This document shows positions 20,991 through 56,353 of a DNA stretch of 64,000 bases, piece after piece. Every line of letters begins with the position of its first letter. Position 1 is the stretch's first letter. The DNA is from Armatimonadota bacterium (GTDB lineage Bacteria > Armatimonadota > Zipacnadia > Zipacnadales > JABUFB01). The notes under the pieces are model-generated. The model did no database searches. It was given only the letters and a program-made list of their open reading frames with translations, and had not been told where the DNA came from. The DNA lies in NCBI GenBank assembly GCA_013314775.1, contig JABUFB010000003.1, forward strand, positions 170,622 to 234,621, in the 5' to 3' direction. Both the position numbers and the translations under genes were made by a program.

Positions 20991-21911
20991 CTACTGCGCC
21001 GGCCCTGGCGTGTCGTCGTCGACCAGGGCCATCCCGCGCCGGACCCGCATGCGCCACTTGTAGTACTCCGTGAAGGTCACGGGCAGCAGGTATGTGAGCC
21101 CGAACCCAAGCATGGCATAGCGTGCATAGTCGGCTGGTTCACTGTCACCGAGGATCGCTTTCAGGCCGATGCGCAGGCCGAGCAGGACCGTCACCGCCAC
21201 CAGCAGCTTGAAGGCCTGGGTGAGCCGCGGTGCGTGGGCGCTGTATCCACGTCTTTCCAGGAGAATGAACCCGATCCCGGCGCCCAGCAGCACTCCGGCG
21301 GAGCGCACGCAGGCCTCGACGCCCTGCCCGGCAATGTATGTCATCGCGGATGCCGCGACCACCAGAACCATGGAGTTCGCGGCCTCCAGCTTCCGTCCCG
21401 ACGCCTTCCACGCGCCCAAAACGAACAGGTAGGCGAGCAGAATCAGCCCGCCGATGATCAGTCCGCCGACAACATCAACCGGCCAGTGAACCCCGAGCCA
21501 CAGGCGCGAGAAGGCGATCCCAGCAATGAGCAGCAGTGCGGCGATGCGTCTGACGGGCGAGCCGGTGCGCAGGGCGATGACCCCCCAGACCACCGCGGCG
21601 TTCTGGGCGTGGCCGCTGGGAAAAGCCGGGCCGCCTGCGCTCTCGGGGTACAGGGCAGTAATCTGGTCCGGATAGGCCTCATAGGGGCGCACCGTTCCGA
21701 TGGACTGCTTGAGCAGACCATTGGAGAAAGAGGTGGCGAGAAACAGGATGATCAGATGAAAGCCAATCCGATGGCCCGCGCACAGGTAGACAAAAGCCAG
21801 CAACACCATGTAGGCCTCTTCCGACCCCAATCCTGACAGGCCGATGAACAGGTTGTCCAGGAAGGGGACTCGCAGGCTCTGCAACCACATCAGGAAGTCC
21901 AGGCTTGACAT
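20991..21911 (-). CDS. PAP2-family membrane phosphatase
   Basis: 306 residues from ATG 21911 (AAGGGC upstream); the frame is open further upstream but overlaps the divergent gene. The three phosphatase motifs are complete: K68-x6-R75-P76 (KQSIGTVRP), P98-S-G-H101 and S135-R-x5-H142-x3-D146. Six or more membrane helices flank them, and the active site faces outward. The family dephosphorylates lipid phosphates such as undecaprenyl pyrophosphate or phosphatidic acid. The C-terminal half (residues 165-300) is an extra membrane region with about four helices, longer than a minimal PAP2 protein. It converges with the GH42-like gene. Confidence 0.92.
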   Translation of the reverse strand: MSSLDFLMWLQSLRVPFLDNLFIGLSGLGSEEAYMVLLAFVYLCAGHRIGFHLIILFLATSFSNGLLKQSIGTVRPYEAYPDQITALYPESAGGPAFPSGHAQNAAVVWGVIALRTGSPVRRIAALLLIAGIAFSRLWLGVHWPVDVVGGLIIGGLILLAYLFVLGAWKASGRKLEAANSMVLVVAASAMTYIAGQGVEACVRSAGVLLGAGIGFILLERRGYSAHAPRLTQAFKLLVAVTVLLGLRIGLKAILGDSEPADYARYAMLGFGLTYLLPVTFTEYYKWRMRVRRGMALVDDDTPGPAQ

Positions 21912-22011
21912 GGCTTGCCCTTCTGTCTGAAACTCAGATACCTGTTGAAGAAGGGTTCGCCGCAGCCCAAGCAGTACCTGCCGCCAGCAAACCAACCGGG
22001 GGAGCATGCTG

Positions 22012-23550
22012 ATGGGGCTCACGAAAGACCAGATATTGGCCGATCTGAGGGCGCTCGGTGTTAGCGAAGGCATGGTGCTCATGGCCCACTCATCCCTGTC
22101 CGCACTTGGACGGGTCGAGGGTGGCGCCGAGACCGTCATCGAGGCACTCGCGGAAGCCGTCGGCCCAACCGGGACCCTCTGTATGCCTGCGATGTCCGGC
22201 GAGCAGCCCTTCCGGGTGGAGTCTTCACCCTCCAACGTGGGGAAGGTCACCGAGCGGTTCCGCTCCTGGCCCGGCGTCAAGCGCAGCATTCATCCGACCC
22301 ATTCCGTCTGCTGCCTAGGCCCGAAGGCCGACGAGATCATGGCGGGGCACATCGACCAGCCTACCGCACTGGGTCCGGAGTGCCCCTGGGCGCGCATCGC
22401 GAGAATGGAAAACGGTTACATCCTCCTCCTTGGCTGTGACCAGGACCGCTGCACACTCCTGCACTGCGCCGAGGAAGCCGTAGATGCGCCGTACCTGAAC
22501 ACCATCAGCCGGGACTATGTCGATGAATCAGGTGAGGTTCAGACCAAGATCCTGCACAAGTTCCCCGGGCCGCACCGGGACTTTATCGGTCTGAATCCCA
22601 TCCTGCGCCGCGCGGGAGTGCTCAAGATCGGGAAGGTGGGCCGGGCGCTTGCAACGCTCATGCCCGCGGGCAAGCTGCTGCAGGTCGCCATCGAGGCCCT
22701 GCGCGACGACCCGGCCGCGGTACTGTGCGACAACCCGAACTGCGCTGACTGTGTGCGCCAAAGGGCCGCGATCAAGCGACACCGTCTGGCCCAGGAGAGC
22801 TTCACTCTATCGGCTGTGCTGGACGAGCTCACGGTGAACCTGGACCGACTCGGCGATGCGCTGCAGACACTCACAGCCCACGGCATAGGCTACATCGAGC
22901 TTGGCCCGGCGACATCCGGTATGATCGGCTCCATGGCGCCCGAGCAGATCGAGCGCATTTCCGGTGAGATCGCCGCACGGTCGATGAGCGTCAGCATGGT
23001 CTCGTGCTCGGGGCCGCTGTCCCTCAACGAGAACGTGCGCCAGGCCATGGTGCTTGCGAAGGCTCTGAACTGCGGTTTCGTCAAGCTGCCGCCGCTCTTC
23101 GCCGACAGCCACCTTTCGGTGGAAGAGCTTCCCGCGCTGGTTTTCGAGGCCGGTGAGAACGGGATCAGCCTGGTGGTCGAGAACCAGCTTGGCGGCCTGT
23201 GCGAAACGAAGACGGGCTGCGAGGAGTTCTTCGCAGCCAACAACGGCGTGCTGCTGGCCTTCAACCCGGCCCATTTCGCCCACGCCGGCGAGCACCCGTT
23301 CCTGAACACCTTTTACAAGGGCCGTCTGAAGCACGTGATACGGCAGCTCTATGTGACCGACGGCTGTCATCCGGGCGGCGAACAGTTTACGCTGCCCGGC
23401 CAAGGCAACGGAGAGGTCAAGGAATTGATCTCGATCCTGCGCTGCCGCGGCTTCGACGGATTCCTGTGCCTCAAAATGGGCGACCGCACCGGACGGGAGG
23501 CCTTCAACGCACAGGCGGATGCATTCTGGAGGCTGCTGGAGAACCTGTGA
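22012..23550 (+). CDS. AAC(3)-family acetyltransferase fused to a sugar-isomerase-like TIM barrel
   Basis: I choose ATG 22012 (GGGGGA eight bases upstream); ATG 22006 lies too close to that site. Residues 1-260 are an AAC(3)/YokD-type N-acetyltransferase: MVLMAHSSLSALGRV, IHPTHSVCCLGPKA, LGPECPWARI and the Cys cluster LCDNPNCADCVRQR. Residues 268-512 fold like an AP-endonuclease-2/xylose-isomerase barrel (GIGYIELGPATSG, ISLVVENQLGG, HVIRQLYVTDG, GFDGFLCLKMG). Two expected metal ligands are altered: Asn in LAFNPAHF where Asp is usual, and Lys in LCLKM where the last strand normally ends in Glu. The reaction is unknown. An acetyl-amino-sugar role is plausible but is inference; antibiotic resistance should not be assumed. 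Confidence 0.88.
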   Translation: MGLTKDQILADLRALGVSEGMVLMAHSSLSALGRVEGGAETVIEALAEAVGPTGTLCMPAMSGEQPFRVESSPSNVGKVTERFRSWPGVKRSIHPTHSVCCLGPKADEIMAGHIDQPTALGPECPWARIARMENGYILLLGCDQDRCTLLHCAEEAVDAPYLNTISRDYVDESGEVQTKILHKFPGPHRDFIGLNPILRRAGVLKIGKVGRALATLMPAGKLLQVAIEALRDDPAAVLCDNPNCADCVRQRAAIKRHRLAQESFTLSAVLDELTVNLDRLGDALQTLTAHGIGYIELGPATSGMIGSMAPEQIERISGEIAARSMSVSMVSCSGPLSLNENVRQAMVLAKALNCGFVKLPPLFADSHLSVEELPALVFEAGENGISLVVENQLGGLCETKTGCEEFFAANNGVLLAFNPAHFAHAGEHPFLNTFYKGRLKHVIRQLYVTDGCHPGGEQFTLPGQGNGEVKELISILRCRGFDGFLCLKMGDRTGREAFNAQADAFWRLLENL

Positions 23551-23566
23551 TAGGGACGTTGCACTG

Positions 23567-25285
23567 ATGCGTGTATTCCTCGCGGTAGCCGCCTGCCTGT
23601 CTCTCTCGGTGGCGGCCTTTGCGCAACCCGGCGGGCCGGATGTAGACAAGCGGCAGGTGTCGGTGGAGGCGGTCAACCGCCCGCTCACCGATGTCCTGGC
23701 GGATCTCGGCCGCCAGATCGGCGCAGGGATCATCGGCCAGGGCACTGACGCCACGCTGGTCACTCTCTCCCTGTCCAACACGCCTTTCCGGGATTGCATG
23801 GACCTTCTCGCAGACACTTTCTCGCTTATCGCCGGGTGGGAGGGAAATGCGCTGGTAGCGCGCTCCATGACCCATGCGGTGCAGGCGGTTGACCGGCGTC
23901 TGGCCGAAGGCCAGATCGACGCTCTCGCCACTCTCATGCCTGCCGCAAGTGGGCAGGTGCCTCTGTATGGGTCGGACGACCTGCGCAAGCAACTGGCTGG
24001 GAAGCTCCAGCAGATCGTCTCCGAACGCACCCGGGAGTGGCTGGCGCTGGGCGACATGGACCCCGATCTCGCCCTTATGATGGCGTCGATCCCGTTGCAG
24101 GACCCCAAGCTGCGGCCGGCCCTGGTATGCCTGGGTGTGCGCGGGCTGGTGCGCGACGGTCGGGTTGACGCGGCTCTCGAAGCCTGGAATCTCTACCTGC
24201 GCGGCGATCGATCCCCCGCAACGGCCACGGCGTGGGCTGAACTGTTCTTCGCGCTGCACTACAGTTCGTCCCCGTACGCCGTTGCCTTCTGGCAGCAGTC
24301 CTTCAGTCCCGACCGGGTGGCGGATGTGTTGGGCCAGTACTGGTCCGAGAAGCGCTACCAGGACGGCCTGCATTTCGCGCGCCTGAATCTGCGCTATGCG
24401 ACGGGAACCGGACGCGCCGCGGAGGCCGCTCGATTAGAGCAGATCATTGCGGCAACTCTCGGCCAGGTGCGCACCATCGACGTCACCTGCGCCGTGGATG
24501 CCGACGCCCTCACCGACCCGCGCACGGAGAACAAAGTGCGGGTGCGGGTTGGGAAGCTTTCCGAAGTGTTCGAGCGCGAGTTCGGCATCCGCTTCCGGGT
24601 TACCGACATGATCGCGTGGAACCCGCCCTCGAACAACGGCTTCGAGCCCCAGTACGTCGCCCTCAAGCAGGCCCTCGGAACCCGCAGACCCGAGCTCACC
24701 CTCGGGTTCATCCTGGAAGTCTTTCAGATGCACCCGTCGCAGTTCCAGCCCATGCACAAGCACCTGTGGATCGGCTACGGCTGCCCGCATGTGGGCGCAT
24801 ACCTGCTCACCCGGGACTTCTCCTTCGAGTACATCACCGCTAATGAAGCGCTGGAGTGGACCTTCAAGCCGGGCGCGGTGGAAGAGACCCTGGTACATGA
24901 AATGGCCCATATGTTCGGCGCGCTGCACGTGGATGACCCCACATCGGTCATGCGCCCCACCTCCAACAGCCGCGTGGAATGGTCCTTCGACGACGTGAAC
25001 CGCCAGATCATCATGGCCGGGAAGTGGCGCGACTTCTCGAGGGGCGTCGATTCCCTGGATATCCCTGAGCTGCTTACCACCATCGACCGATACCACGCGC
25101 TGGCCGGTCAATCCGCGACGCCCAATGGCGCGGTGCAGGAGATCGCGCGCTGCCACCTGGCCCTGGCGAAGCTCTACTCGGCGCGGCGCGAGCCACTCAT
25201 GGCCCGGGAACACCTGCAGGAGGTCCTGGCCATCGGCGAACCCAAGGACGTGCTGGTCGAGGCCCAGGCGATGTTCGCGGGCTAG
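23567..25285 (+). CDS. Secreted metzincin-type zinc metalloprotease with STN-like N-terminal domain
   Basis: ATG 23567 gives a clean signal peptide (MRVFLAVAACLSLSVAAFAQ); an in-frame upstream ATG would overlap the preceding gene. 572 residues. Residues 25-95 (VSVEAVNRPLTDVLADLGRQ, then LVTLSLSNTPFRDCMDLL) resemble the secretin/TonB short N-terminal (STN) fold. Residues 120-290 are helical. The protease signature is HEMAHMFGALH: H444, E445, H448 and H454, with a likely Met-turn SVMRP at about 462-466. This is the long metzincin zinc site (HExxHxxGxxH). The C-terminal 90 residues are TPR-like helices. Substrates are unknown. It is 16 bases behind the fusion gene. Confidence 0.87.
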   Translation: MRVFLAVAACLSLSVAAFAQPGGPDVDKRQVSVEAVNRPLTDVLADLGRQIGAGIIGQGTDATLVTLSLSNTPFRDCMDLLADTFSLIAGWEGNALVARSMTHAVQAVDRRLAEGQIDALATLMPAASGQVPLYGSDDLRKQLAGKLQQIVSERTREWLALGDMDPDLALMMASIPLQDPKLRPALVCLGVRGLVRDGRVDAALEAWNLYLRGDRSPATATAWAELFFALHYSSSPYAVAFWQQSFSPDRVADVLGQYWSEKRYQDGLHFARLNLRYATGTGRAAEAARLEQIIAATLGQVRTIDVTCAVDADALTDPRTENKVRVRVGKLSEVFEREFGIRFRVTDMIAWNPPSNNGFEPQYVALKQALGTRRPELTLGFILEVFQMHPSQFQPMHKHLWIGYGCPHVGAYLLTRDFSFEYITANEALEWTFKPGAVEETLVHEMAHMFGALHVDDPTSVMRPTSNSRVEWSFDDVNRQIIMAGKWRDFSRGVDSLDIPELLTTIDRYHALAGQSATPNGAVQEIARCHLALAKLYSARREPLMAREHLQEVLAIGEPKDVLVEAQAMFAG

Positions 25286-26043: not shown

Positions 26044-26730
26044 TTGCGCAAGACAGGCGGTTTTACGTTGATCGAGCTCTTGGTTGTGATCGCGATCATC
26101 GCGATCCTGGCCGCCATTCTGTTCCCGGTGTTCGCAAGAGCACGCGAGAAGGCGCGCCAGGCAAGTTGTCAGTCGAATATCAAACAGATCATGCTCGCCT
26201 GCATCATGTACAAGACCGACTACGACGGCCGCTTCCCGCAGAACTGCACCTCCTCGTCCACCACGGGTTGTGTTGCGCCGGGTTGGGACTGGCGAGAAGT
26301 CACCCAGCCCTACGCCAAGAACTGGCAGCTCTATATCTGTCCCTCGACCGAAGAGATTTCCCGGCCCTGTATGCTCAGCATCCCGCGCAGTTTCGCAGGG
26401 CAAAACCTCGGCGGGTACGGCGCGAACGCCGGCCGCCCGGGCGTCATCGGTCAGATCGGCAATGGCCCCTTCGGCAATAGCTATCACCGACCAGCCCCGA
26501 AGGAGTCCAAGTTCCAAACTCCGGCCGAACTCATCGCCATCGTGGAGACTGCAGTGCACTGCCACATGGTCTGCGGCGTGGGGCACATGGGCACTGACAC
26601 CGGGTCCACCACCGGCTGGGATGCCCGACGCTTTGACCACAATGACGGCATGAACTGCGGCTACTATGACGGCCACGTCAAGTTCCACAAGCGACAGTTC
26701 ACCGCCGCCGAAATGGGCACGGATCTCTAA
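26044..26730 (+). CDS. Type IV pseudopilin-like secreted protein with H-X9-DG motif (copy 2)
   Basis: 228 residues. The start is TTG 26044 (AGAGGTGAC upstream); the only nearby GTG is out of frame. The leader [20 protein letters not shown] has Gly-Phe cleavage and Glu+5. [16 protein letters not shown] follows, and [16 protein letters not shown] is the C-terminal H-X9-DG motif. Between them the globular head is unrelated in detail to copies 1 and 3 (Cys-rich, [10 protein letters not shown]). The protein is expected to be exported and processed like a minor pilin. It is followed by a hairpin at 26760 and copy 3. Confidence 0.92.
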
Positions 26731-26759
26731 TCCAGACAGGCTCCACTTGCGCTACTTGC

Positions 26760-26788
26760 AGAGCCCCGGCACCCAAGGCCGGGGCTCT
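26760..26788 (+). terminator. Hairpin between pseudopilins 2 and 3
   Basis: A perfect 11-bp stem (AGAGCCCCGGC with its complement) and a 7-base loop lie 29 bases after the stop. No real T-tract follows, so termination may be partial. Confidence 0.65.
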
Positions 26789-26843
26789 CACTTTCAGCGC
26801 CCGTTAGAACCGGCAGAATATCGTCGAAATTGTCGTAACAAGG

Positions 26844-26859
26844 GGAAGGAACTCGCAAG
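26844..26859 (+). promoter_or_regulatory. Conserved leader element before pseudopilin 3
   Basis: GGAAGGAACTCGCAAG lies 49 bases before the TTG start at 26909. It differs by one base from the element at 25978 and has nearly the same spacing. Probably a shared control or mRNA leader element. Confidence 0.5.
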
Positions 26860-26908
26860 GCCCACGTCGAAGGTAAGCATTACATCCTTCAGGAAAGAGG
26901 TGACCGGC

Positions 26909-27601
26909 TTGCAGAAGACCCATGGTTTCACGCTGATTGAGCTGTTGGTGGTCATCGCGATTATCGCGATCCTGGCGGCCATTCTGTTCCCCGTTTTTGC
27001 CAGAGCACGCGAGAAAGCGCGCCAGTCAAGCTGTCAGTCGAACCTGAAGCAGATCGCTCTGTCGTTCCTCATGTACAGCCAGGACTATGACGAGAAGTTC
27101 CCGTGGTGCTGCAGCGCACCACCCCGAACCGGCAGAAACGACGGCCTGAATGTGGACCCGTGGTGGCGCCCGGCCTCGGTCGGAACAACCGACATTCGCT
27201 ATGCGGGTCTCACGGGTCCGTACATCAAGAACCGCCAGATCTTCGTCTGCCCATCGGCGAACTATGATGTGAATGGCTACGCCGCAGCGCGGCAGGTCCT
27301 GCAGAGCAACAATGGCTGCTACGGCCGCCTCCAGGCCGAGATCAAGTTCCCGGCCGAGAAGGTCCTCTGCGGGGACGGCATGAACACCCGCGGGCTGTGC
27401 GGAACGAACCGCAGCACCTCCTGCGCAGGACGCTGGGGACGTGGCGACGACGCCGCAGCTACGATCGAGGCCTGGAAGCGCCACAACGACGGGACCAACA
27501 TGGCCTACTGCGACGGACACGTGAAGTACCAGAAAACCCCGTCCGGCCCGATGGATCAGACCCAGTGTCTCAAGATGTTCGGCGACCCAAGGAACTACTG
27601 A
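26909..27601 (+). CDS. Type IV pseudopilin-like secreted protein with H-X9-DG motif (copy 3)
   Basis: TTG 26909 (AAGAGGTGA upstream) is chosen by analogy with copy 2; GTG 26900 is in frame but lies inside the ribosome-binding site. 230 residues: [20 protein letters not shown] leader, [16 protein letters not shown], then [12 protein letters not shown]. The C-terminus has [16 protein letters not shown] (H-X9-DG). The head contains several Cys pairs. Copies 2 and 3 look like a tandem duplication that has diverged in the head domains. Confidence 0.91.
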
Positions 27602-27687: not shown

Positions 27688-28659
27688 CTATGGCGCCCCG
27701 AGTTCGGGTCTGGGGAACAGGTCGCACAGTTGGGCGTAGGTCTCGTCGCTCAGTTCCACGTTCGCTGCGGCCACATTGTCCCGCATCTGCTCGATCTTCG
27801 TGGCCCCGATGATCACCGACGTTACGGCCGGGTGCTTCATGCACCAGGCGAGAGCAAGCTGGGCGGCGCTGATTCCGAGCTCAGCCGCCATGCTCTTGAG
27901 GGTCTGGGCCTTGCGGAGTACCTCGTCCTTGAAATACAGGTCCATCATGATCTTGTTCTGCGATGGGTCCGAGGCCCGGGTCCCTTCCGCAGGCGGCTTG
28001 CCGGGTTCGTACTTGCCGGTGAGTACTCCGTGCGCCAGAGGTGAGAAGACGACGTTGCCCATCCCGGTCTTCAGCGTGGTGGGGAAGACCTCGGCCTCCG
28101 GGTAGCGCCACAGGAGGCTGTAGCGGGGCTGATTGGATACCGGCGGCCGGCAGCCCATAGCTCTCGCAAGGTCACACGCCTCCTGCAATAGCGCTGACGG
28201 CCATTCGCTGCAACCCCAGTAGAGGATTTTCCCCTGCCGCGCGAGGTCATCCATGATCCGGATCGTCTCCTCCAGCGGAGTATCCGGGTCGGGTCGGTGA
28301 CATTGGTACAGGTCGATGTAGTCAGCGTTCAACCGCTTCAGGCTGGCATGGCACTGCTCGAAGATATGCTTGGCCGACAGCCCGCGATCATTAGGCCCGT
28401 CACCCATGGGCGCCCAGACCTTGGTGGCGAGGACATACGATTCCCGCGGATAGCCGGGGAGGATACGGCCCAGGGACTTTTCAGCCTCGCCGCGATTGTA
28501 GGCATTGGCCGTGTCGAACCAGTTGATGCCGGAGTCGAAGGCCAGGGCCACGCATTCGGCGGCGACGTCATCACTCACATGCATGCCGATGGTGAGATAG
28601 CTCCCCAGCCCGATCTTGCTGATCTTGACGCCCCACTTGCCGAGGTTGCGGTATTCCAT
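27688..28659 (-). CDS. Aldo/keto reductase
   Basis: 323 residues from ATG 28659 (AGGGGATA upstream). The (beta/alpha)8 AKR tetrad is visible: Asp and Tyr in WFDTANAYNRGEAE, Lys in VLATKVWAP and His in DLYQCHRPDPDTP. The C-terminal cofactor-binding segment is ITSVIIGATKIEQ-like (TSVIIGATKIEQMRDN). Resembles YajO/IolS-type NADP(H)-dependent reductases of the KCNAB-like class. Substrate unknown; the adjacent TIM-barrel sugar isomerase on the same strand suggests sugar or inositol metabolism. Confidence 0.93.
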   Translation of the reverse strand: MEYRNLGKWGVKISKIGLGSYLTIGMHVSDDVAAECVALAFDSGINWFDTANAYNRGEAEKSLGRILPGYPRESYVLATKVWAPMGDGPNDRGLSAKHIFEQCHASLKRLNADYIDLYQCHRPDPDTPLEETIRIMDDLARQGKILYWGCSEWPSALLQEACDLARAMGCRPPVSNQPRYSLLWRYPEAEVFPTTLKTGMGNVVFSPLAHGVLTGKYEPGKPPAEGTRASDPSQNKIMMDLYFKDEVLRKAQTLKSMAAELGISAAQLALAWCMKHPAVTSVIIGATKIEQMRDNVAAANVELSDETYAQLCDLFPRPELGAP

Positions 28660-28742
28660 GGTGTATCCCCTGGCGTGCGTGGTTGTGGATTTAGCCGTTG
28701 CAGCCGGTTGGCCCGGACCCTCCCAGCCGGGGCAGGTCTCCG

Positions 28743-29516
28743 TTACTTCAGGCCCCACGCCCGCATGTTGTCGAAGCTGATCTTCAGGCTGTCGAAGGGA
28801 TCGCGGTCGTAGCAGTTGTCCTGCTCGACGATGTACCATTCGACGCCCGTGGTCTTGCAGGCTTCCAGGATGTTGGGCCAGTTCAGATTGCCCTCACCGA
28901 CCTCAGCGAAGCGCTGCTCGCCGCTGACAATCCGGAAATCCTTGAAGTGGACGAGGAACATGCGGCCTTTGAGCATGCGGATCCAGGCCGCCGGGTCGCC
29001 GCCGCCATGCTGCACCCAGTAGGTGTCGATCTCGCCGGTCACATATTTCGGGTCGCTCTCTTCGTAGATGATCTGCAGGCCGGTGCGATCGCCGTACTTC
29101 TCCAATTCGAAGCTGTGGTTGTGATACCCGAAAGCCATGCCGGCCGCCGCCAGCTTACGCCCCACCTCATTGGCCTGCTTGGCGAAGGCGGCGTACCCCT
29201 CGGCGCTTCCCCGGAACTCATTGGGCAGGCCACCAATGGCGGGGTACTTGCACCCGATGATCTCGTGTTGCTCGATCATCCGGTCGGTGTCGTCGCGCAG
29301 GCTCTCGAAGGACACGTGGGTCGCGGCGACCACGATCCCGTTGTCGTCGCAAATGCGGCGAACATCGGCCCAGTCAATGTCCTTGCCGATGCCGGAGACT
29401 TGCACGGCCTCATAGCCGATCTCGCGCACCCGCTTCATGGCCTGGGCAAAGTCTTCGGTGGTCTGGGTGAAATTCCGCAGCGTATACAGCTGGGCGGCGA
29501 TCTGTGTCCGTGGCAT
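28743..29516 (-). CDS. Sugar phosphate isomerase/epimerase (IolE/xylose-isomerase-like)
   Basis: 257 residues from ATG 29516 (GAGGA upstream). Metal-site motifs are complete: FGYHNHSFEL (Glu), GEIDTYWVQHGG (Asp, His), LVHFKDF (His) and EWYIVEQDN (Glu). The opening QIAAQLYTLRNFTQ is typical of the sugar isomerase/inosose-dehydratase-like subgroup. It is cytoplasmic and probably acts on keto-sugars or inosose. It is upstream of, and on the same strand as, the aldo/keto reductase, 83 bases apart. Confidence 0.92.
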   Translation of the reverse strand: MPRTQIAAQLYTLRNFTQTTEDFAQAMKRVREIGYEAVQVSGIGKDIDWADVRRICDDNGIVVAATHVSFESLRDDTDRMIEQHEIIGCKYPAIGGLPNEFRGSAEGYAAFAKQANEVGRKLAAAGMAFGYHNHSFELEKYGDRTGLQIIYEESDPKYVTGEIDTYWVQHGGGDPAAWIRMLKGRMFLVHFKDFRIVSGEQRFAEVGEGNLNWPNILEACKTTGVEWYIVEQDNCYDRDPFDSLKISFDNMRAWGLK

Positions 29517-53994: not shown

Positions 53995-54795
53995 TCAGTT
54001 CAGATCAGCAAGCATCTCCCTGAGTTTAGACGCATACTGGGGGAATGCGACTTCAGGTCCCTGGAGTTCCGGGTGCCATTTCTTCTCCCACTCCAGGGAC
54101 AGGTAGCCCTCGTAGCCGATGTTCCTCAGACACTGCAATACCTCGCGCAAGGGCAGGTCGCCTTCGCCGAAAAGGGTATAGCGCGGCTTGCCGTCCTGCC
54201 AGAAGCCATCCTTCAGGTGAACGTGGATAACCTTGCCTCCGATGGCCTCCAGGGTCTGTTCGGGTGTTTCCCCGTGGCGGATAGAGTGGTGGGCGTCCCA
54301 GACGATCCCCAGCGCGGGGTGGTCCACGGCGTCCAGGATCAGCGCGCATTCGTCACCGCGGCACCAGGCGTCATGGGTTTCGAGGCCGATGGTGACCCCT
54401 TTGTCCCCGGCGAGATCGCACATCCTCCGCAGGCTCGGGGCCAGCAGTTCGACGGCATGCTCCCGGGAGGCGCCTTCAGGAAGGCCGCCGCCGAACACTC
54501 GCACGATCGGTGCCCCGATCCTGGCGGCCAGGCGCACGTAAGCCTCGCACTCTTCTTCCGCCGCGTTGGTCCGGGCGAAGGAGGCGGAGCTTCCCAGGAC
54601 AACCAGGTCGCAGCCGCTCTCCGCAAGCCGGGTGAGGAATAGCGAACCCGGCTCCAGGTGAGGGCTGTCGGGCAGGTGCATGTTGTCTTCAAGACCGCGC
54701 AGTTCGATCCCTTCGTAGCCCCACTGGTCAATCGCCTGCAGGACTCTCTCTACCGACCAGCCCGGGCAGCCCAACGTCGAGAAACACGGTTTCAC
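53995..54795 (-). CDS. Sugar phosphate isomerase/epimerase (TIM barrel)
   Basis: I choose GTG 54795 (AGCAGGTGA five bases upstream), four bases after the transglutaminase stop; ATG 54811-54813 overlaps that gene and lacks a ribosome-binding site. 266 residues. Metal motifs are GVTIGLETHD (Glu), GIVWDAHHSIRH (Asp, His), VIHVHLKDGF (His) and GYEGYLSLEWEK (Glu), all intact. IELRGLEDNMHL near residue 30 is family-typical. Cytoplasmic keto-sugar or inositol enzyme. Confidence 0.92.
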   Translation of the reverse strand: MKPCFSTLGCPGWSVERVLQAIDQWGYEGIELRGLEDNMHLPDSPHLEPGSLFLTRLAESGCDLVVLGSSASFARTNAAEEECEAYVRLAARIGAPIVRVFGGGLPEGASREHAVELLAPSLRRMCDLAGDKGVTIGLETHDAWCRGDECALILDAVDHPALGIVWDAHHSIRHGETPEQTLEAIGGKVIHVHLKDGFWQDGKPRYTLFGEGDLPLREVLQCLRNIGYEGYLSLEWEKKWHPELQGPEVAFPQYASKLREMLADLN

Positions 54796-54799
54796 CGGT

Positions 54800-56353
54800 T
54801 CACCTGCTCTCATCAATCTGGATCACGGGACCATCGTCCAGCGCGTATTCGATGACGTGAACTGTCAGCGCGCCCAGATTGCGCCCGGCGGCCAGGGCCA
54901 TGTTCGCAAGCGCTGACATGTCCACAGGGCCGGAGGCCATACGGATGTGGCCGGCATCCACCGCGTTCTCGCCCCAGGCCGGGTCCATCTCCACCCACTG
55001 GCCCACATAAATCTCGTTCCAGGCGTGGTAGAAGAAGCTGCCCCGGGCGTAGGCGATTCCGGTGACCATGCGAGCCGGGATTCCCACCGCGCCACATAGC
55101 GATGCGCAGAGAATCGCGTGCTCGGTGCAGTCACCGCTCATCTGCTCCATGATCTCCGTGGCTGAAATGAGCCGCGGCTCGCTGTTCACCTTGTGGAGCT
55201 TGCGGTACACCCACTGGACAATCTTCTCGGCAGCCTTCTGGGCGTCGGTCTCCTGTCCCACGATCTCCCGCGCAGTCTCGAGAATCAAGGGATCTTGCGG
55301 CTGGAACAGGTCCGAGGGCTGGAAGTACCGGGCGAACTGCTCATCGCGCATAGGGAATGTGGCACCGGTGGGTTCGGCTTTGTGGCGGCGCACAGTGAGC
55401 AGCAGGCCTTCGCCATTGGGCGTCGCCTCTTGCCGCACCGTGGTGGGCAACTCCATGAGCGGGATCCCGCCCGGCCTGTCCAGACGGACTTTGAGCATGG
55501 AGAGTGCGCGGGGGTTGTCCACGCGCAGGTTGGCCTGAATCTCGCTGGAAAGCACCAGCGGAGCGGCAGCCTTCAGGGCCTCTTGCTCGGTGGTCTGAAC
55601 CACCTCAAGCTGCAGCAGCGACGGTGTGGAGAAAGAGATCAGGTCGCCGTCGCCGGCGATGACGCTGATCACCTCCAGAGGCAACGCCTCACCGCGGGAG
55701 TGCACCACGAAGGCCTGGCGTCCGTCCTCAAGTGTGCGTTCCTCAGTGATCCACATCACATGTCGGTCGCACCGGGAGAGATCAGGCTCGAAGGTCACAA
55801 ACTCCGTGCGGTAGCCGACCTTCGCCTCGCCGCGCAGGATGGCGAGCATGAGGTCGAGGTCGCTGCCGAAGTCCTCAGGGAGGGGGAAGCTGGTAGTGTT
55901 CTCGGTGGTGCCGGCGCGGGTGTGGACCTCGATTGCCCCGCCGACCACATGCGCCGTGACTTCTCGCATGCGCCCGAACTCATCGCTGCGGACGCCCAGG
56001 GACAGCGGGTTCAGGTCCGTATCGTAGACCGCGGTGATCAGGCTCTCAATGGACAGGTCCTGGGCAAGGCCCGCCAGCTTCACCCGTGACTGCACCTTCT
56101 GCTCCACCACGAGTCGCGGGTTGCCCTCCGCGTCCTTCACGATCTGCACATTGCGGTAAGCATACCCCGTTCGCTGCCCCATAAGATGCACCGCATACCA
56201 CTGGGTGCCCACGAGGCCGGCGAGCTCATCGACGGCGGCAGCGTCGGCAAGCTGGGTGGCGCCGGGCAGGAGGAACACCAGACCGGCCAAGGCAAGCACG
56301 CGCGCGCCGTTCAGGGTGATCCAGACAGGGGAGCTTGGCATCGCTTCATTCAT
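54800..56353 (-). CDS. Transglutaminase-like cysteine protease-fold protein
   Basis: About 517 residues from ATG 56353; 56365 is a possible earlier start. A signal or membrane anchor region lies near residues 10-32 (ARVLALAGLVFLLPGATQLA). The C-terminal core has the complete catalytic triad: Cys in MSGDCTEHAI, His in FFYHAWNEIYVG and Asp in WVEMDPAWGE. The first 300 residues are beta-rich with no known family. The family forms or breaks amide bonds between side chains or in peptides. It precedes the isomerase gene by a few bases. Confidence 0.9.
   Translation of the reverse strand: MNEAMPSSPVWITLNGARVLALAGLVFLLPGATQLADAAAVDELAGLVGTQWYAVHLMGQRTGYAYRNVQIVKDAEGNPRLVVEQKVQSRVKLAGLAQDLSIESLITAVYDTDLNPLSLGVRSDEFGRMREVTAHVVGGAIEVHTRAGTTENTTSFPLPEDFGSDLDLMLAILRGEAKVGYRTEFVTFEPDLSRCDRHVMWITEERTLEDGRQAFVVHSRGEALPLEVISVIAGDGDLISFSTPSLLQLEVVQTTEQEALKAAAPLVLSSEIQANLRVDNPRALSMLKVRLDRPGGIPLMELPTTVRQEATPNGEGLLLTVRRHKAEPTGATFPMRDEQFARYFQPSDLFQPQDPLILETAREIVGQETDAQKAAEKIVQWVYRKLHKVNSEPRLISATEIMEQMSGDCTEHAILCASLCGAVGIPARMVTGIAYARGSFFYHAWNEIYVGQWVEMDPAWGENAVDAGHIRMASGPVDMSALANMALAAGRNLGALTVHVIEYALDDGPVIQIDESR

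Follow-up and report, generated by a model that had tools for sequence, protein, structure and literature searches.

The window, a 64,000-nucleotide stretch of an Armatimonadota contig, carries at 22012..23550 (+ strand) a gene for a real, conserved two-domain protein of 512 amino acids, an AAC(3)-type acetyltransferase joined to a xylose-isomerase-like barrel with an incomplete metal site. The explanation that we favour, tentatively and with somewhat less than even confidence, is that the protein is a small-molecule N-acetyltransferase whose barrel has been co-opted as a metal-free, ligand-handling partner, with a cyclase-like protein belonging to the same module.

The reading frame is uninterrupted from the ATG at 22012 (an alternative ATG lies at 22006), and both Pfam domains fall in a single chain: Antibiotic_NAT (NAT) at residues 24-230 (E 2.3e-50) and AP_endonuc_2 at residues 287-495 (E 1.1e-7). 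An AlphaFold2 model of the whole protein, built from a 31-sequence alignment, has a mean pLDDT of 95.1 and a pTM of 0.89, with every stretch at 50 or above. Full-length homologues with 44-58% identity are present in many related genomes, and scanning named genomes brought up this architecture in Candidatus Zipacnadia and further Armatimonadota, in Lentisphaerae/Lentisphaeria (Lentisphaerota), in Victivallales, in Kiritimatiellota and in Planctomycetota. The barrel profile was matched in 70 of the 199 genomes around a Victivallaceae genome, the listed frames there being nearly all of fused length, and both domains were found in all 28 newly fetched loci that were tested; a scan of viral contigs returned no relative of the fusion. 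The original prediction, an AAC(3)/YokD-type acetyltransferase joined to an isomerase-like barrel, is thus borne out by Pfam, by structural matches and by full-length homologues, and the genome survey that it called for shows the architecture recurring across several phyla.

The C-terminal half (residues 262-512; 22795..23547, +) is identified as a xylose-isomerase-like TIM barrel by PF01261, by the models and by structural comparison. Its PF01261 score is marginal against the cut-off of 31.1 bits (32.2 in the whole protein, 34.9 when the barrel is searched alone). Modelled by itself, the barrel reaches a pLDDT of 93.3 and a pTM of 0.91; in the whole-protein model the same residues match the known barrels Art22 (Z 25.7), UlaE (Z 24.2) and AsbF (Z 22.9), the last of which is also the top Foldseek match. 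Searching PDB sequences with the barrel returned nothing but spurious hits to WD-40 propellers over a 28-residue stretch, and a literature search on Art22 returned nothing useful.

Enzymes of the D-tagatose 3-epimerase type bind one metal through Glu152, Asp185, His211 and Glu246 (PMC8167858). The equivalent positions were assigned by a profile alignment to stand-alone barrels whose site is intact, among them one in the window at 53995..54816 (- strand; PF01261 E 9.9e-35), which has the complete Glu-Asp-His-Glu quartet and serves as an internal control. In this alignment the quartet becomes Glu390-Asn418-Tyr447-Lys488 in the fusion. The control barrel reads VWDAHH and LSLEW, containing the Asp and Glu noted for it in the original prediction, and these two residues are set opposite Asn418 and Lys488, so that the Asn and Lys singled out there do lie at metal positions. 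Both proposed substitutions therefore stand, but the tally was incomplete: Tyr447, which takes the place of the His of HxKD, is a third loss, and the first ligand, Glu390, is kept.

Residues at the four positions were counted in 59 fused rows (six of which duplicate another row), five NAT-adjacent unfused barrels and 25 stand-alone barrels. The first Glu (Glu390 here; 23179..23181, +) is found in 21 of the 59 fused rows, in all five unfused paired barrels and in all 25 stand-alone barrels. Asp at the position of Asn418 (23263..23265, +) occurs in 1/59 fused rows and 24/25 stand-alone barrels; His at that of Tyr447 (23350..23352, +) in at most 1/59 fused rows and in 24/24 stand-alone barrels with a residue there; and the last Glu, replaced by Lys488 (23473..23475, +), in 0/59 and 23/23, the latter again counted where a residue is present. 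When the fused and NAT-adjacent unfused barrels are taken together, Asp and His are each present in at most 1 of 64 and the last Glu in none, and no fused or paired barrel counted has the full quartet. Judged by its aligned residues, then, the fusion barrel lacks the Glu-Asp-His-Glu set by which a metal-dependent ketose 3-epimerase/isomerase would be recognised. Among stand-alone barrels, one (L160:247-1032) shows the Asp-to-Asn change only, its remaining three ligands being intact.

In five Clostridial genomes (L136/L080, L142, L144, L149 and L157) the NAT and a metal-less barrel are separate adjacent genes; at L080 the barrel gene begins after a Shine-Dalgarno-like AAAGGAGG, 15 nt past the NAT stop. 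In the barrel tree the fused and paired barrels form one group (96/97), with the pairs (100/100) and the fused barrels (92/89) each grouped in turn; the root is a midpoint used for drawing only, and the tree does not give the order in which pair and fusion arose. Ligand loss is tied to partnership with the NAT and not to fusion as such. The NAT tree likewise places the fused rows in one group save for two intruders, which we take for artefacts: S_L005 sits on a long branch (2.07), and P_L164 comes from a split copy that had been scored as a pair. The unfused Clostridial NAT of L080 has a second Cys-rich tail (CLDPVCEIC; L080:5848-5934) that is absent from the fusions.

In the first set of loci, 10 have a gene for a PF04199 cyclase immediately next to the fusion; so do 24 of 40 further loci, at a distance of at most 200 bp (a few of these duplicate the first set), and four of the five unfused Clostridial pairs likewise adjoin one. 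Across 61 genomes, 21 carry both the fusion and a close cyclase, 5 the fusion only, 3 the cyclase only and 32 neither (Fisher p 1.4e-8, an indicative value, as the genomes are related and p overstates their independence); the genome of the window has its close cyclase on a different contig (G000:C8). Kynurenine formamidase binds Zn through His50 and His54, of which His54 is strictly conserved (PMC4243253). The linked cyclases resemble it in family match, in the GTxxD/ExxxH core and in keeping the His60 equivalent, and differ in that both Zn-binding His are replaced: in 44 of 44 (some of which duplicate a locus) the His50 position is Q, M or E and the His54 position is Tyr. Among more distant cyclases in the same set of genomes, six of the seven with a readable motif retain both His, the seventh having the first His and Tyr at the second. 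One cyclase unlinked to the fusion, in L264, reads HAGTYLDAPAH, so that the change of His54 to Tyr is also met by itself. From this linkage we infer that the PF04199 cyclase-like protein belongs to the same module as the fusion. Neither this recurrent partner nor the unfused Clostridial pairs were visible to the original prediction, which was made from the window alone.

Beyond the cyclase, gene neighbourhoods vary. Some operons also hold a DegT aminotransferase, a Gfo/Idh oxidoreductase, a creatininase-family hydrolase and a ROK-like regulator (the last named from its sequence, without a family search), and DegT and Gfo/Idh are missing at many loci. DegT was rejected as a universal partner, the specific orthologue being absent in Zipacnadia, where the best matches have about 39-41% identity. 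Zipacnadia members have no adjacent cyclase; a D-aminoacylase-like amidohydrolase follows the fusion in 13 Armatimonadota loci, mostly Zipacnadia, and its orthologue in the genome of the window lies about 52 kb downstream of the fusion. The fusion's own neighbours in the window, a PAP2 phosphatase and an M12-like peptidase, do not fit the conserved context. The former, of the PAP2 family, is divergent from the fusion (20994-21911, -); the latter, the next gene downstream (23567-25282), looks secreted, weakly matches M12/M10 metallopeptidases and has a VHEMAHMFGALH motif. Farther along the window are two adjacent ORFs sharing a prepilin-like start (26044-27601) and another stand-alone xylose-isomerase-like barrel (28743-29516, -), which adjoins an ORF named from its sequence as aldo/keto-reductase-like (27688-28839). 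The same genome has four more AAC(3)-type genes, none of them fused to a barrel (L002-L005: G000:C1:18850-19638, C19:7467-8207, C7:58508-59194 and C13:136712-137491), and an ORF beside the gene of L005 (2472-3311) weakly matches the barrel profile.

The N-terminal half (residues 1-254; 22012..22773, +) is a member of the Antibiotic_NAT family: it scores 171.7 bits against a PF02522 gathering cut-off of 25, and its nearest solved fold is AAC(3)-IVa (6mn3), with Z 33.6 and an rmsd of 1.7 A over 246 residues. Catalysis in this family relies on the His and Glu of TxxHxxE as a dyad (PMC8956665), and in the fusion the motif is T148-H151-E154 (22453..22473, +), its His and Glu being unchanged in all 31 aligned fusions. 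The Cys cluster CDNPNCADC (C239-x4-C244-xx-C247; 22726..22752, +), equally invariant in those 31, is a putative Zn site of AAC(3)-IV type: Cys244 and Cys247 align opposite the Cys pair at the C-terminus of AAC(3)-IVa, and in AAC(3)-IV Cys247 and Cys250 are part of a zinc site, their double mutation abolishing resistance (PMC7504452, PMC8956665). The cluster was reported at the outset and is indeed present at residues 239-247; it is not a novelty, being the Zn-type motif already known from the C-terminus of AAC(3)-IV/Group 1 enzymes (PMC7504452, PMC8956665). By motif, the domain has the Cys signature of Group 1 (AAC(3)-IV-like) Antibiotic_NAT proteins, and Zn binding is predicted.

Taken together, the favoured explanation would work as follows. 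The N-terminal half would carry out acetyl-CoA-dependent N-acetylation through His151 and Glu154, with a Group-1-like Zn/Cys tail, an activity to which these motifs point. The C-terminal half, kin to metal-dependent sugar epimerase and isomerase barrels, would have been kept as a fixed partner after its metal site was gone, acting as a metal-free ligand-handling domain and not as a classical epimerase; it may bind, position or hand over the small polar amine that the transferase acetylates. The PF04199 cyclase-like protein, likewise minus its Zn ligands, would act in the same module. The DegT and Gfo/Idh neighbours suggest a substrate of the amino-sugar or aminocyclitol type. Against this, the molecules on which the two halves act might differ, and since neighbours vary (Zipacnadia have no adjacent cyclase and several have the D-aminoacylase-like gene), a single shared substrate is unproven. 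The original prediction of a possibly metal-independent barrel agrees with the lack of any full quartet; its new two-step sugar-amine reaction is a conjecture, and binding or substrate handling fits at least as well.

The main rival reading keeps the barrel as an enzyme: a metal-independent isomerase, epimerase or dehydratase would use acid-base chemistry at other pocket residues (for example Asp450, Glu296 and Asn391), making the protein a true two-step enzyme, both isomerising and N-acetylating one amino-sugar, in line with the original prediction. The barrel is not decaying, as judged from Nei-Gojobori dN/dS values between close pairs of about 0.05-0.47 (0.04-0.37 for the NAT), and purifying selection acts on both halves; this selection, together with the invariant polar residues E296, N391, D450, E468 and E471, speaks for such an enzyme, and sugar-metabolism genes lie nearby in some loci. 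However, in D-tagatose 3-epimerase-type enzymes it is Glu246 and Glu152 that do the proton transfer (PMC8167858), no fused or paired member has the last Glu, only the minority of fused rows counted above still have the first, and the replacements differ by clade (K/R/G/W/T), unlike a re-made active site. We consider this reading unlikely, if still worth serious attention.

Conservation within the barrel lies mainly in the beta6-beta8 half, and the most conserved residues are not significantly enriched at the C-terminal strand ends (8/30, p 0.34), for which reason a conserved pocket is not claimed as proven. This pattern, and the confident two-domain model (pTM 0.89), would suit a barrel that serves the acetyltransferase only as a scaffold, structural or for oligomerisation, and has no ligand of its own; yet N391, F422 and D450, which adjoin the old metal site, are invariant in all fused rows, and stand-alone AAC(3) enzymes need no scaffold, which leaves this idea with a small share of our belief. 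Smaller again is the chance that the barrel still holds a metal through Glu390 and other side chains: Glu390 is retained here, in the same minority of fused rows and in every unfused pair, but the other fused rows have R, F, A, Y or V in its place and no alternative conserved His/Asp/Glu set exists at the remaining ligand positions.

It is highly improbable that the protein serves aminoglycoside resistance, with the barrel as a passenger. AAC(3)-IVa is the closest solved relative and shares the catalytic and Zn-type motifs, but the NCBIfam equivalog cut-offs (NF033082/NF033081) are missed widely, at 131.2 against 270 bits for AAC(3) and 130.6 against 420 for AAC(3)-IV, so that fold and motif place the protein in the family, but it is not to be named an aminoglycoside-resistance enzyme; moreover, the family is chromosomal, spans several phyla and has metabolic neighbours, and FrbF, YokD and BA2930 share the fold without aminoglycoside activity (PMC8956665). 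A sequencing indel or assembly join as the origin of the fusion can be dismissed: in-frame stops or frameshifts do occur in a few copies from metagenome-assembled genomes (L051, L077 and L068), a sign that assemblies of this kind are not free of error or decay, but the fusion is full length, with no indel or stop separating its halves, in dozens of independent genomes across several phyla.

Both domains and the Zn-type Cys motif are already known. The NAT resembles AAC(3)-IVa in fold (Z 33.6, 32% identity), in TxxHxxE and in a C-terminal cluster of Cys residues, which in AAC(3)-IV binds Zn, and differs in being joined to or beside a barrel, in falling below the equivalog cut-offs and in its metabolic neighbours. 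With the PF01261 barrels (UlaE, AsbF, IolE and D-tagatose 3-epimerase, and Art22 by structure) the C-terminal half shares the (beta/alpha)8 fold and a detectable sequence family, from which the fused and paired members depart by an incomplete E-D-H-E and the fused barrel by its place C-terminal to a NAT domain. PDB 5hmq (a 4-hydroxyphenylpyruvate-dioxygenase/xylose-isomerase-like barrel) likewise joins an AP_endonuc_2-type barrel to an enzyme unrelated to it, its partner being a different one. No account of the fusion or of the NAT-barrel-cyclase trio turned up in the open-access literature searched; within that scope, and short of proof that none exists, the lasting pairing of an AAC(3)-type enzyme, fused or unfused, with an isomerase barrel that has lost its metal site, and their link to a degenerate cyclase, seem to be new.

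To our knowledge, the natural substrates of chromosomal AAC(3)/Antibiotic_NAT relatives, a reservoir of resistance genes, are mostly unknown, and the fixed partner barrel, its unfused homologues and the recurring operon together offer a concrete route to a native substrate. For comparative work they are a clear instance of a metal-dependent TIM barrel losing its metal site once coupled to a second enzyme, the intact stand-alone relatives serving as controls. It is conceivable, although we would lean slightly against it, that an AAC(3)-type acetyltransferase and two former metalloenzymes (barrel and cyclase), serving as binding or metal-free catalytic subunits, make up a widespread chromosomal module with an amine substrate, and that this is a native metabolic role of the family from which aminoglycoside resistance arose. 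That the arrangement recurs across phyla, often beside a similarly altered third protein, suggests that such acetyltransferases have a native task that has gone unnoticed.
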